DNA of 64,000 nt. Origin: Roseivirga echinicomitans (GTDB lineage: Bacteria; Bacteroidota; Bacteroidia; Cytophagales; Cyclobacteriaceae). The translations under genes were made by a program, and so were the position numbers. Shown here piece after piece: positions 9,039 through 27,155 of this stretch. The stretch's first letter is position 1. Every line of letters starts with the position of its first letter. The stretch is taken from the NCBI RefSeq assembly GCF_001592935.1, contig NZ_LRDB01000050.1, positions 496,001 through 560,000 on the forward strand. Direction: 5' to 3'. Under the pieces are notes generated by a model. That model was not told where the DNA came from and searched no databases. It saw nothing but the letters and a program-made list of their open reading frames with translations.

Positions 9039-9515
9039 ATGAAACCAGAGTTCACCTATATAGAGCAATTCATCAATCGAATTGATGTGGAATGCCCCAG
9101 TTGCAAAGCCAAAGCAGTTGTGACTTCAAGCCCAGAAAATCGAGCTGAGACCAGGTTTACTTGTGTTCGTTGCGGTTCGACAAAGCATTGGATTGGTAAA
9201 GAAAATGTTTTTCAAACGGGAAGCAGCATATTCAATTCGGGAGGAATTCTTTTGGGAAGCCCTATTGATTGTTACTTCAAATATCCGCTGTGGTATCAAA
9301 CCGAAATTAAAGGAGAAGTACTTTTTGGCTATAACCTAGAACACCTCACCTATTTACTCAATTTCATTTCTAGCAAAGTAAGAGAACGTCAGTCGAATGA
9401 GCATGGCTGGAGTAACCGAAGTTTGGAAAGCAGATTGCCTAAATGGATGCTTTCTGCCAAAAACCGAGAGGTGATTGAGAAAAAACTGAAAGAACTAATG
9501 GCAAAGGAAGGTTAG
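9039..9515 (+). CDS. Zinc-ribbon protein of unknown function
   Basis: 158 residues. Near the N terminus, CPSCKAKAVV and, about 20 residues later, CVRCGSTKHW make a four-Cys zinc ribbon (Cys at about 19, 22, 42, 45). The middle (WYQTEIKGEVLFGYNLEHLTYL) and the basic C terminus (SRLPKWMLSAKNREVIEKKL) resemble small Bacteroidota proteins whose function I do not know. It is not in an operon. The stop codon is followed at once by a perfect heptamer repeat, and a degenerate tract of the same period precedes the gene by about 80 bases, suggesting a movable or repeatedly inserted unit. Confidence 0.7.
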   Translation: MKPEFTYIEQFINRIDVECPSCKAKAVVTSSPENRAETRFTCVRCGSTKHWIGKENVFQTGSSIFNSGGILLGSPIDCYFKYPLWYQTEIKGEVLFGYNLEHLTYLLNFISSKVRERQSNEHGWSNRSLESRLPKWMLSAKNREVIEKKLKELMAKEG

Positions 9516-9516
9516 G

Positions 9517-9543
9517 GTTTAGTGTTTAGTGTTTAGTGTTTAG
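9517..9543. repeat. Tandem heptamer repeat (GTTTAGT), nearly four copies
   Basis: GTTTAGT at 9517, 9524 and 9531 and a six-base fourth copy at 9538, one base after the zinc-ribbon stop codon (9513-9515). See the related degenerate tract at 8924-8958. Confidence 0.85.
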
Positions 9544-22842: not shown

Positions 22843-22869
22843 GTCTAATGTACTTATGTATTGTTGTTT

Positions 22870-22925
22870 TGAAGTGTTGAAGTGTTGAAGTGTTGAAGTA
22901 TTGAAGTGTTGAAGTGTTGATGTAA
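22870..22925. repeat. Tandem octamer repeat (TGAAGTGT), left arm of the S23 element
   Basis: Seven units of 8 bases: TGAAGTGT three times, TGAAGTAT, TGAAGTGT twice, then TGATGTAA. AAGTGTTGATGT (22912-22923) and AAGTGTTGAAGT (22904-22915) have exact inverted partners at 23356-23367 and 23372-23383, on the other side of the S23-type gene. Confidence 0.9.
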
Positions 22926-22938
22926 TTCACAACACCTT

Positions 22939-23313
22939 CTATTGGCCTACTTTATTTCTTAAGTATTTTATGAATGCTAAAATTGAGGCCTTCGCTTCTT
23001 CAGTTTGATTTTGTAAGCTCTCGATATCTTCAGCTGGAAAATAACTGAGATCGAGCATCAAATAAGTCATGCTTTTTACTTCAGTACAGGAAGCAGCAGC
23101 ATAATCAAGAAATTTTATAAAGTCTTTTGGAGAAAATCGCCCAAATCCTTCAGCAATATTATTCATGATTGAAAGCCCTGCTCTCTTGAACTGCGAACGT
23201 GTGTCAAAATCTTTGGCTAACTGACCTTGATTAGACATGGTATACACTTGAAATGTGAGCTTCCTAGCTAATTGCCAACATCTTAAATCTTCAAACCGTG
23301 TAACCTTTGTCAT
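22939..23313 (-). CDS. Four-helix-bundle protein of the S23 / 23S rRNA intervening-sequence family
   Basis: 124 residues, typical family length. Hallmarks: FEDLRCWQLARKLTFQVYTM at the N terminus, QFKRAGLSIMNNIAEGFGRF in the middle (RAxxSixxNIAEGfgR), and FIKFLDYAAASCTEVKS. Relatives are encoded inside intervening sequences of 23S rRNA genes (Leptospira, Coxiella) and as scattered copies in Bacteroidota genomes; a pentameric basic bundle that binds nucleic acid is known for the related Avd protein. The biological role is unknown. It sits inside the met operon between metH and metF with 12-bp inverted arms on both sides, which no methionine function explains, so it is probably an insertion. Confidence 0.92.
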   Translation of the reverse strand: MTKVTRFEDLRCWQLARKLTFQVYTMSNQGQLAKDFDTRSQFKRAGLSIMNNIAEGFGRFSPKDFIKFLDYAAASCTEVKSMTYLMLDLSYFPAEDIESLQNQTEEAKASILAFIKYLRNKVGQ

Positions 23314-23354
23314 ATCTATATCATTTAATCTTTTGATGGGTTTAAATACCTAAA

Positions 23355-23383
23355 CACATCAACACTTAATTACTTCAACACTT
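23355..23383. repeat. Right arm of the S23 element
   Basis: ACATCAACACTT (23356-23367) and ACTTCAACACTT (23372-23383) are exact reverse complements of units in the 22870-22925 tract. The arm runs into the metH stop codon (23382-23384), which supplies its last bases. Confidence 0.85.
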
Positions 23384-26096
23384 ATAAATCATAGGCTAAA
23401 TTTGGAGACAACCACTTCTCAGCTTCTTCCAAAGTCATTCCTTTGCGTTTGGCATAGTCTTGCACTTGGTCTTTTTCAATTTTACCCAAACCGAAGTATT
23501 TGGCCTCTTCATGCATAAAATAGAGCCCACTTACGGAAGAAGCTGGGTACATCGCCATAGACTCAGTAAGTATAATCCCTGTCTCTTCTTGCGCATTGAG
23601 TAAATCAAAAAGAATGGGTTTTTCAGTATGGTCTGGACAAGCTGGGTAGCCTGGCGCAGGACGAATTCCCTGATAGCTTTCTTTGATTAAAGATTCGTTG
23701 TCCAATGTTTCGTTCTTCGCATAACCCCAAAGTTCCTTGCGCACTATTGCGTGCATGGCTTCTGCAAAGGCTTCTGCCAAACGATCGGCAATGGCTTTGA
23801 TCATAATCGAGTTGTAATCATCATGATCCTTCTCGTATTTTTCAACGAGTGGCTCAATACCTAATCCACCAGTAACTGCAAAACCACCGACATAGTCGAT
23901 CTTACCTGAATCTTTTGGCGCGACAAAATCGGCTAAGGACAAGTTTGGAATTCCTGTCCCTTTTTTGCCTTGCTGTCTTAAGCTATGAAATACAGTTTTT
24001 ACTTCGGAACGAGTTTCATCAGTATATACTTCAATATCATCGCCCACACTGTTGGCTGGATAAAGCCCAACCACGCCATTGGCTTGTAGTAGGTTATTCT
24101 CAATCACTTCATCGAGGACTTTCTGAGCATCATCGAACAGCTTTCTTGCTTCTTCCCCAATGGTTTCATTTTCAAAAATTCGTGGATATTTACCTTTTAG
24201 CATCCAGGTTTGGAAGAAAGGTGTCCAGTCAATGTATTTTCTAATAATATTCAGATCGAAGTTTTTAAAGACCTTATTACCAATAAAACTAGGCTTCACA
24301 TACTCCTTCTTCTGCCAATCTACTTTTAGTCGATTACCTAAAGCCCTGTTATAAGGAATGTAATGCTTGATTTCTTTACGGTTAGCGTGATCTTCTCTGA
24401 GCTTGGCATATTGTTGTTTAATTTCCGCATTGTACTCCACCTTGCGTTCTCCACTAATCAGTTCTCCAGCCACAGGCACACTCTTAGAGGCATCCAAAAC
24501 ATGTACAACTGGACCAGAATAGACAGGATCAATCTTTACTGCAGTATGAATTCTAGAAGTGGTTGCACCACCTACCATAAGAGGAAGCTTCATCTTCCTT
24601 CTTTCCATCTCCTTGGCCACATGTACCATTTCATCCAAAGAGGGTGTAATCAAGCCACTTAGACCAATTACATCTACATGTTCTTCAATGGCTTTGTCCA
24701 GAATTTTATCTGCAGGCACCATTACGCCCATATCGATGATCTCGTAGTTATTACAGGCCAAAACCACCCCTACAATGTTCTTCCCAATGTCATGAACGTC
24801 ACCTTTTACAGTGGCCATAAGGATTTTTCGCCCTGCGTCAGTTTTAGTTTGATCACGATTGGGATCATTACGTTTGGCTTCCTTCTCTTCTTCTAAATAA
24901 GGTAAAAGATAAGCCACCGCTTTTTTCATCACACGAGCACTCTTCACCACTTGTGGCAAAAACATTTTACCAGAACCAAAAAGGTCCCCTACTACATTCA
25001 TTCCATCCATTAAAGGCCCTTCAATGACCTTCAATGGACTTACATATTTCTGGCGAGTTTCTTCTGTATCTTCATCGATAAACTCTATAATTCCTTTTAC
25101 CAAAGCATGCTCAAGTCGTTTCTCCACCGATTCTTTTCTCCACGCATCGTCTTTTACTTGCTTCTTACCCTCGCCCTTTACCGTTTCGGCAAAATCGAGT
25201 AAACGCTCGGTAGAATCTGGTCTACGGTTTAAAAGTACATCCTCCACCCTTTCCAATAGATCCTTCGGAATATCACTGTAGATCTCCAACATGGTAGGAT
25301 TGACAATCCCCATGTCCATTCCATTTTGGATGGCATGATAAAGAAAGGCTGAATGCATGGCTTCGCGAACAGGGTTATTCCCTCGGAATGAGAACGATAC
25401 ATTACTTACACCGCCACTCACATGAGCACCCGGTAGGTTTTCTCTAATCCATTTGGTCGCCATGAAAAAATCGACCGCATTATTATTATGCTCTTCTATC
25501 CCTGTGGCCACAGGGAAGATATTCGGATCGAAGATGATGTCGTTTTTATTGAACTTAACTACATCAACTAGAATATCATAAGAACGCTTACAGATTTCAA
25601 TTCTTCTATCATAAGAATCTGCCTGACCATCTTCATCAAAAGCCATGACGATGACAGCCGCTCCGTAACGTTTTACTTTCTTTGCATGAGCAATAAATTG
25701 CTCTTCTCCTTCTTTTAAAGAAATTGAATTCACTACACATTTCCCCTGAACACACTTCAACCCAGCTTCGATAATTTCCCATTTTGAAGAGTCTATCATA
25801 ATGGGTATTCGAGAGATATCTGGTTCAGCAGCTATCAGATTCAGGAATTTAACCATCGCTTCTTTCCCATCAAGCATTCCTTCATCCATATTGACATCTA
25901 GAATCTGTGCCCCACCATCTACTTGATCACGGGCGACTTCTAAAGCGTCATCAAATTTCTCTTCCAAGATTAGTCGTGCAAAACGCTTAGAACCTGTTAC
26001 ATTGGTTCGTTCACCCACGTTTACAAAATTAGATTCGGGGGTAACAATTAGGGGTTCGAGGCCTGAAAGTTGAAGTGTACTGTTGTCGTTTCTCAT
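23382..26096 (-). CDS. metH: Cobalamin-dependent methionine synthase, folate / B12 / reactivation part
   Basis: 904 residues. It transfers the methyl group of methyl-THF to homocysteine through cobalamin. Domains in order: pterin-binding domain (~15-290; [26 protein letters not shown]), B12 cap helices (~320-420), cobalamin-binding Rossmann domain (~425-560) with the [11 protein letters not shown] His ligand motif and [13 protein letters not shown], and the C-terminal AdoMet-dependent reactivation domain (~570-904; [30 protein letters not shown]). The homocysteine-binding domain is missing here but is encoded by the gene just upstream (36-base gap), a two-gene arrangement seen in Bacteroidota. 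Confidence 0.96.
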
Positions 26097-26132
26097 TTGC
26101 TATGCAATAAGTAAAAAGTCTTCTGAATCGGT

Positions 26133-27155
26133 TTAATCTTGAATTATTTGACGCTCCAAGCTACGTGGTTCGTACCTACTGGCCACTTCAGCAATGGCTC
26201 TAATATGATCTGGTGTGGTTCCACAACAGCCTCCAACAATGTTCAAGAAATTGCTAGAAAGGAAGTCTTCAATCTGCTCTGCCATTTCTTCAGGCGATTC
26301 ATCATATTGACCAAATTCATTAGGCAAACCAGCATTCGGATGAGCACTGGTGAAAAAATCGGCCTTTTCAGAAAGCGTTTCCAAATATGGGCGAAGTTGC
26401 TTAGCTCCTAAAGCGCAGTTTAAGCCTATAGAAAGTAAAGGCATATGAGAGACAGAAATTAAAAAAGCCTGAGTGGTTTGTCCTGAAAGTGTTCTTCCAC
26501 TGGCATCCGTAATAGTTCCAGAAACCATAATTGGCCATTCCTTTCCCTTTTCTTCAGAAACCTCTTCAATTGCAAAAAGTGCTGCTTTAGCATTAAGTGT
26601 GTCAAAAACTGTCTCTACTAATAGTAAGTCAACCCCACCATCGGTTAATGCAATTACCTGTTCTTTATAAGCCTGTACTAATTCATCGAAGGTAATTGCC
26701 CTAAAACCAGGGTCATTTACATCAGGTGATAAAGAAGCAGTTCTGTTGGTTGGGCCAATTGAGCCCGCTACAAAACGAGGCTTATGAGGCTCTTGGGCCG
26801 TTATTTCATCGGCCACTTCTCTTGCGATTTTTGCCGACTCGAAGTTGATTTCATACACAGCATCTTCCAAATGATAATCTGCTTGGGCAATCGTAGTACC
26901 ACTAAAAGTATTGGTTTCTACAATATCAGCTCCAGCTAAAAAATACTGGCGATGGATGTCTTTGATGATTTCAGGACGAGTAATAGAAAGCAGATCATTA
27001 TTTCCTTTTAGGGAATGCGGGTGACCTTTGAATCTTTCTCCTTTAAAGTCTTCTTCCTCTAAAGGGTGCCTTTGAATCATGGTGCCCATTGCACCATCTA
27101 AAACCAAGATTCGTTCTTTGAGAATTTCCTTAATATTTCTTGACATATTTTGCAT
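26133..27155 (-). CDS. metH: Methionine synthase, homocysteine-binding domain as a separate protein
   Basis: 340 residues forming the complete Hcy S-methyltransferase barrel: [12 protein letters not shown] at the N terminus, [33 protein letters not shown] (first zinc Cys) and [17 protein letters not shown] (two further zinc Cys). It supplies zinc-activated homocysteine to the cobalamin protein encoded next. The start may be the ATG at 27155 or the one three codons later (27146). Only eight bases separate the ATG at 27155 from the SAM-I riboswitch aptamer, so this is the gene directly governed by it. Confidence 0.93.

Follow-up and report, generated by a model that had tools for sequence, protein, structure and literature searches.

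The S23-type gene between metH and metF in Roseivirga echinicomitans is probably one copy of a dispersed hairpin cassette that resembles the intervening sequences (IVSs) of rRNA but lives in operon mRNA, not in 23S rRNA. In the window, which is the whole 64,000-nucleotide stretch of DNA analysed, the minus strand carries the homocysteine-methyltransferase half of metH (27155-26133), the larger half of metH (26096-23382), the S23, or four-helix-bundle, gene of 124 amino acids (23313-22939) and the downstream host gene of the operon, metF (22842-21889). ORF listings and profile matches identified all four. A gene of the S23 type had been proposed at this place from the sequence alone, and the profiles agreed: the 124-aa ORF matched PF05635 with an E-value of 2.8e-30 (105.1 bits versus a curated cut-off of 33.8) and TIGR02436 with 2.6e-28 (98.4 bits versus 24). 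It lies outside any rRNA gene, its site being the metH/metF junction. The two genes that make up metH in the window (23382-27155) are themselves separated by an S23 cassette in genomes G008, G010, G011, G012 and G015. By sequence, the solved relatives of the protein are 2gsc (XCC0516) and 2rld; the S23 protein of Xanthomonas is described as five four-helix bundles arranged as a ring (PMC4990558; here and below, statements on cited papers refer to the excerpts available to us).

The gene is framed by inverted repeat arms, both on the minus strand. The spacer from the metH stop to the S23 start is G-rich with TGAAGTGT-like units, and the 5′ arm (in mRNA sense; 23344-23383), delimited by arm pairing and folding, consists of octamer-like repeats that start within the metH stop codon. 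The spacer on the other side, from the S23 stop to the metF start, contains a C-rich array with about 6.5 units of CAACACTT, and repeat finding placed this 3′ arm at 22866-22927, just upstream of metF. The octamer tract that the sequence-only reading had described on this side was recovered at 22869-22920 as 6.5 copies of TTGAAGTG (95% match). Likewise, the two 12-mers that it had noted on the other side (23356-23367 and 23372-23383) were exact reverse complements of tract units, the second one entering the metH stop codon. The longest well-paired arms found by an inverted-repeat search spanned 40 nt with 85% complementarity (22888-22927, the best-paired portion of the 3′ arm, and 23344-23383). 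The own-flank alignment score of this locus was 28, while mismatched flanks in a comparison of 100 S23 genes averaged 7.9 (sd 2.5). When the mRNA stretch was folded, the closing helix suggested earlier was present in the computed structure (-126.9 kcal/mol, z = -3.1 against 100 shuffles), so that by computation the terminal arms are able to form a stem around the S23 gene. The best-lag self-similarity of the two spacers beside the gene was 0.72 and 0.55 at lag 8, while that of the other listed intergenic spacers of the window (15-400 nt) was at most 0.42, save for an 18-nt spacer (0.55) and a tract at 9515 (0.49). The latter (9515-9543) contains four TTTAGTG heptamers right after the stop of a plus-strand gene and before a convergent gene; the profile search gave no S23 match of this genome there, and the tract is possibly an orphan 5′ arm.

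The same layout was found at other places of this genome. Seven S23 profile matches corresponded to six loci, since the lepA|folD copy is frameshifted and matches twice. The loci were fadB|fadA, trpE|trpG, metH|metF, sufB|sufC, scoA|scoB and lepA|folD, and all six S23 genes were on the same strand as both of their same-direction neighbours. The five other loci were also flanked by protein genes, none of them lying in an rRNA gene. Nine of the ten other neighbours matched named families in profile searches, some below the curated cut-off, and the remaining one, at trpE|trpG, we take to be TrpG by recognition. Repeats were visible beside the S23 gene at all six loci, with a repeat unit that differed from locus to locus: the trpE|trpG copy carries TAACTGA units, while the window copy carries the octamer. 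Own-flank scores of the five intact copies were 12 (fadB|fadA), 18.5, 28 (window), 20 and 25. The expectation that the other S23 copies would be flanked by inverted arms held for the four other intact ones (12 to 25), and the frameshifted lepA|folD copy paired poorly (score of 10). Inverted arms of the same type as those of the window copy had also been anticipated; arms exist, but every locus has its own unit and none showed TGAAGTGT by eye. Used by itself, the repeat finder detected arms running from flank to flank at only three of the six loci (L002, L003 and L005), the evidence for the others being the alignment score.

We then considered 116 distinct S23 genes, 105 of them from this genome and 18 genomes of the same genus and 11 from more distant ones. 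Their products were mildly basic (median pI of 8.6; pI above 8 in 73 of the 116). Both neighbours were co-oriented with the S23 gene for 102 of the 105 genus genes and for 5 of the 11 distant relatives, and the corresponding figure for other genes of the window was 20 out of 47. Neighbours were assigned by ORF length and overlap rules rather than by a gene finder, with approximate start codons. In the arm test, 130 nt upstream of each S23 gene were aligned to the reverse complement of a 120-nt stretch around and downstream of its stop, using a threshold of at least 12. It was applied to the 105 of 116 genes that had same-strand neighbours close by (100 from the genus and five from outside). 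Own flanks reached the threshold in 86 of the 105 (82 of 100 and four of five, respectively) versus 11% of the mismatched pairs, and the mean score was 15.4 versus 9.3 (sd 2.3 for the mismatched pairs). The remaining 19 loci were under the threshold, and control flanks of neighbouring genes reached it in 6 out of 47 and 4 out of 45 cases. Spacers were also skewed, the 5′ one being G-rich in 76 out of 86 cases and the 3′ one C-rich in 74 out of 80, and their self-similarity peaked at lags 7 and 8, whereas the S23 genes themselves had no such peaks. The skew, the lags and the mismatched mean of 7.9 come from a first version of the arm test with cruder coordinates, run on 108 and then on 100 of 123 ORFs after fragments and genes with distant or opposite neighbours had been dropped.

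Within junctions, arm specificity was only modest. Own arms scored 15.2 and orthologous arms from the same junction 13.6, own arms being better in 66 of 96 comparisons, which are not independent. The mean difference in favour of own arms was positive at 15 out of 22 junctions and not at the other seven, with metH|metF contributing only +0.5; two of the "junctions" (J21 and J22) are pairs of neighbouring S23 genes. Minimum free energy folds of whole cassettes were closed by 15 or more pairs in 78 of 105 cases, compared to 35 of 105 for chimeras carrying the 5′ spacer of another locus, a control that still closes in a third of cases. Terminal inverted repeats common to all copies were not found, the arms being largely locus-specific, and the idea of one conserved arm sequence was rejected because units differ by locus. 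In several genomes, two S23 genes were close together; they adjoin each other in L075, L106 and G021:C191, and in some fadA neighbourhoods, such as L069, L084 and L112, an S23 gene was present on both sides of fadA (L138 also has two close genes).

If the cassette is an insertion, relatives should include genomes lacking it, and an empty site at metH-metF was found. Among the 18 genus genomes with metF, the junction was filled in five (G000, G004, G007, G012 and G001) and empty in 13, including G006, whose metF is 94% identical; the empty gaps were 15-48 nt long. This comparison covered 22 of 30 metF loci, one of which has no metH beside it, the eight others belonging to distant relatives. Presence was equally patchy among close relatives at four other junctions. 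lepA|folD was filled in 3 of the 11 genus genomes searched and clean empty in seven, with gaps of 7-16 nt in seven of the eight S23-free genomes, G006 (FolD 98% identical) among them; G009 has a 274-nt gap without S23 and was excluded from the clean empty sites. trpE|trpG was filled in 5 out of 12, and the gap of the empty sites was -4 to 23 nt in five of six and 80 nt in the sixth, with G007 excluded because the junction lies at a contig end. fadB|fadA was filled in 5 out of 12 genomes and measured 5-58 nt in the seven without an S23 gene, two of which are scars: G004 and G006 retain the end of the S23 gene and the 3′ arm. Similarly, sufB|sufC was filled in 2 out of 11 and measured 23-67 nt in eight of the nine S23-less genomes; in the ninth, G006, a 146-nt scar retains the C-terminal part and the 3′ arm with 94% identity to the copy of R. 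echinicomitans. The earlier proposal of a mobile unit sitting in a neutral gap is supported by these empty sites and by the arms of the other copies, but the gap is not obviously neutral, because empty junctions are tight, with spacings between a 4-nt overlap and some tens of nucleotides.

The copies also showed exchange and loss of such units. At trpE|trpG, G004 and G006, whose MetF and MetH proteins are 98% identical, encode S23 proteins that differ at 34% of positions and have arms of different types; the stretch that differs reaches from the trpE stop to the trpG ATG, and it is precisely at this start codon that the two sequences agree again. G013 and G015, whose hosts are 12% apart, share an identical S23 protein at an FtsZ-like junction, within a high-identity block spanning the S23 gene, the 3′ arm and the first part of the gene that follows. 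G016, which was outside the trpE|trpG search, retains both arms at this junction and has lost about 300 nt of the S23 gene. Its next junction, trpG|trpD, holds an intact S23 gene that shares 85% identity with the copy found at trpE|trpG in G015. In a protein tree of the 116 sequences, the nearest neighbour came from the same junction for 88 of the 99 genes whose junction occurred at least twice, and the tree required 25 junction changes, the minimum being 22 for 23 junctions. These junction-specific clades leave frequent free hopping unsupported, and much of the pattern can be explained by old insertion, loss and recombination. Strict vertical inheritance was unsupported too, given the swap and the weak correlation between same-junction S23 distance and host distance (rho 0.29, 211 pairs). 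The five metH|metF copies of the genus cluster in a single clade confined to this junction, consistent with an old insertion followed by losses and/or spread through flanking-gene recombination; comparing them gave no sign of movement. Altogether, the history fits a rare founding of junctions, spread between relatives by recombination of flanking genes and repeated loss. Homing by a dedicated enzyme may occur but need not be invoked.

These data bear on whether S23 is simply a normal gene of the host operon that has a regulatory hairpin, for example an RNA-binding autoregulator that some lineages have lost. Purifying selection on S23 is indeed strong (median dN/dS of about 0.06 in the 11 same-junction pairs kept, those with dS between 0.05 and 1.2) and the clades are junction-specific, ten junctions holding four or more of the collected genes. 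We nevertheless find this explanation unlikely, as it has to cope with many unrelated junctions, patchy presence among relatives that are 94-98% identical, clean empty sites of 7-16 nt, a frameshifted lepA|folD copy and a whole-cassette swap. A MITE-like DNA transposon with terminal inverted repeats, mobilised by a transposase acting in trans and forming an RNA hairpin only as a by-product, would agree with the inverted arms that bound the unit and with the existence of forms lacking S23, namely the ORF-deleted cassette of G016 and the TAACTGA-array hairpins found at trpC|trpF in G006 and G007. Such an element seems improbable, because the arms vary between loci, and because a DNA-only element would need neither the orientation with the operon, nearly invariable in the genus, nor a skew polarity fixed to the gene. 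Moreover, target-site duplications were not visible by eye at the filled and empty junctions compared, whose spacers have diverged, and neither a transposase nor movement in progress was seen among these cassettes and junctions.

A cassette residing in mRNA is further suggested by the spacing between the host genes. With the cassette in place, the gap between the same-direction genes is about 460-540 nt, and in the 86 of 105 loci with clear arms the upstream stop and the downstream start were a median of 458 nt apart. When the paired arms were collapsed, the gap left outside them in the same loci had a median of 4 nt (interquartile range of -14 to 16). Together with the small gaps of the empty junctions, this median implies that pairing would restore about the ordinary stop-to-start spacing, and we infer that it does so in cells. 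We propose that the unit consists of a 5′ arm, the S23 gene and a 3′ arm between two same-direction genes with which it would be co-transcribed. In the operon mRNA, the complementary heptamer or octamer arms would pair, leaving the S23 gene in the loop and returning the upstream stop and the downstream start to about the distance found in an uninterrupted operon; this restored spacing may be why the host tolerates the insert. New junctions would be founded rarely, through a putative copying step; whole units would be swapped between relatives at the same junction, probably through flanking-gene recombination; and they would disappear through deletions in which the 3′ arm can stay behind. The S23 protein would be conserved for the function of the unit, most likely by binding its own hairpin RNA to fold, process or move the unit, a role to be compared with that of its relative Avd in diversity-generating retroelements. 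The occurrence of the same layout in many operons, together with the empty and scarred sites of relatives, makes it look like a widespread element that inserts without breaking operons.

Heptamer arrays were also present away from S23 genes. TAACTGA arrays without an S23 gene occurred in L353, L359, L360 and L364 and at the contig ends G000:C14, C20 and C51, many of them just upstream of start codons. Three of the seven arrays tested (the second array of L353, L360 and L364) folded more stably than all 50 shuffles, and these have TTGATCAG-like repeats upstream. At trpC|trpF, G006 and G007 have a mini form, an array hairpin without S23, and G011 and G016 have an S23 cassette. That TAACTGA arrays are always scars was not borne out, since L352 and L358 have neither a stable hairpin nor S23, and the reversed pattern was about as frequent in some genomes, indicating that other heptamer arrays exist too. 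It could therefore be argued that periodic spacers are a genome feature of their own, like the TAACTGA repeats upstream of start codons, with S23 merely adjacent and the second arm produced locally through quasi-palindrome templating. C-rich arrays of 7-8-nt units can occur at empty junctions and at S23-free sites, and such repeats have been reported in a paper whose text gave no hit for S23 (PMC4679880). This explanation is very improbable in our view: at sufB|sufC and fadB|fadA the array can be recognised as a scar by the S23 coding sequence that still adjoins it; besides metH|metF, only one other spacer of the window has an array like the S23 arms; and a 5′ arm of opposite skew goes with S23.

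An operon-borne hairpin cassette also appears to extend beyond the genus. The S23 family was detected in 153 of 198 genomes drawn across the phylum. In the 30 best loci of this sample (best match per genome), arms were over the threshold in 26, versus 20% of mismatched pairs, and neighbours were co-oriented in 25. From loci of named organisms, 74 of 80 were usable; arms were present in 47 of 58 loci from Bacteroidota and in 14 of the 16 that carried labels of other phyla, versus 17% of mismatched pairs. Co-orientation was weaker outside the genus than within it, with 54 of 58 for the Bacteroidota and just 9 of 16 for the others. Four of the 30 phylum loci, 11 of the 58 named Bacteroidota and two of the 16 others fell under the arm threshold. 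The other labels included Ignavibacteriae, Balneolaceae and kin, Nitrospirae, Deltaproteobacteria, Planctomycetes and Clostridia; these loci are mostly metagenome bins and some labels may thus be wrong. Genus, phylum and named-organism loci were all picked by best score and not at random. We see a roughly even chance that most bacterial S23-family genes are members of a single class of mRNA-resident, non-spliced "operon IVS". Such an element would be a hairpin that inserts at junctions, hides itself by restoring the stop-to-start spacing and is the source of many intergenic heptamer repeats in Bacteroidota and other phyla, S23 being an RNA-binding protein that acts on the hairpin and on which its movement or tolerance depends.

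PF05635 resembles Avd, with homology of the solved structures being indicated (PMC10053308). Neither of the two RVT_1 frames in this genome lies close to an S23 locus, and an RVT_1 match was obtained in only 14 of 39 genomes, this one included. S23-rich genomes of the genus (G016, G013, G014, G015 and G003) gave no match, which in draft genomes is no proof of absence. A reverse transcriptase is thus seemingly not required, and a resident one was rejected as the mobiliser.

S23 or "four helix bundle" genes are abundant and unexplained. S23 ORFs have been described within rRNA insertions of CPR bacteria (PMC11270868), and a table for Flavobacterium columnare places a four-helix-bundle gene between those for guanylate kinase and nicotinate-nucleotide adenylyltransferase (PMC5524665). 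In the excerpts of two others, a 2023 article in Science (PMC10910872) and a genome study of Arthrospira (PMC8700078), the family is only mentioned. The literature searched, mostly outside subscription journals, yielded no earlier description of operon S23 genes with flanking arms. If S23 is the protein of an mRNA-level hairpin element, the family would gain a testable role, heptamer repeats so far reported without a mechanism would have an origin, and rRNA IVSs, operon spacers and Avd would become linked. It would also advise caution against reading S23 genes as functional members of host operons or cas loci.

Several known systems can be compared with these cassettes. In Pleurocapsa, an S23 gene lies between cmr3 and cmr2 according to the coordinates quoted, and was read as having a CRISPR-Cas-associated function (PMC3936711). 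Its position at an operon junction is the same as here, but our view would make this gene a passenger, and other S23 genes called CRISPR-associated may be passengers as well. The Avd protein of diversity-generating retroelements shares kinship through PF05635, whereas our S23 loci lack an adjacent reverse transcriptase. MacGregor (2015) described intergenic TAACTGA heptamers in Bacteroidetes, Cyanobacteria and Beggiatoaceae and proposed them as the site of a translational regulator (PMC4679880); the arrays are of the same kind and likewise located just upstream of start codons, but at least some of those seen here are arms or scars of S23 cassettes. A close parallel is the 23S rRNA IVS of Leptospira and Coxiella. 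The cassettes described here, known from sequence, differ from it in being placed between the protein genes of operons, with several occupied junctions in a genome, and in having arms of 7-8-nt repeats that change from locus to locus. They share with it a similar unit size, inverted arms, an S23 gene in the loop and a sporadic presence, as in the Coxiella IVS of 428 nt, in which inverted terminal arms form a 28-bp stem around S23 (PMC4990558).
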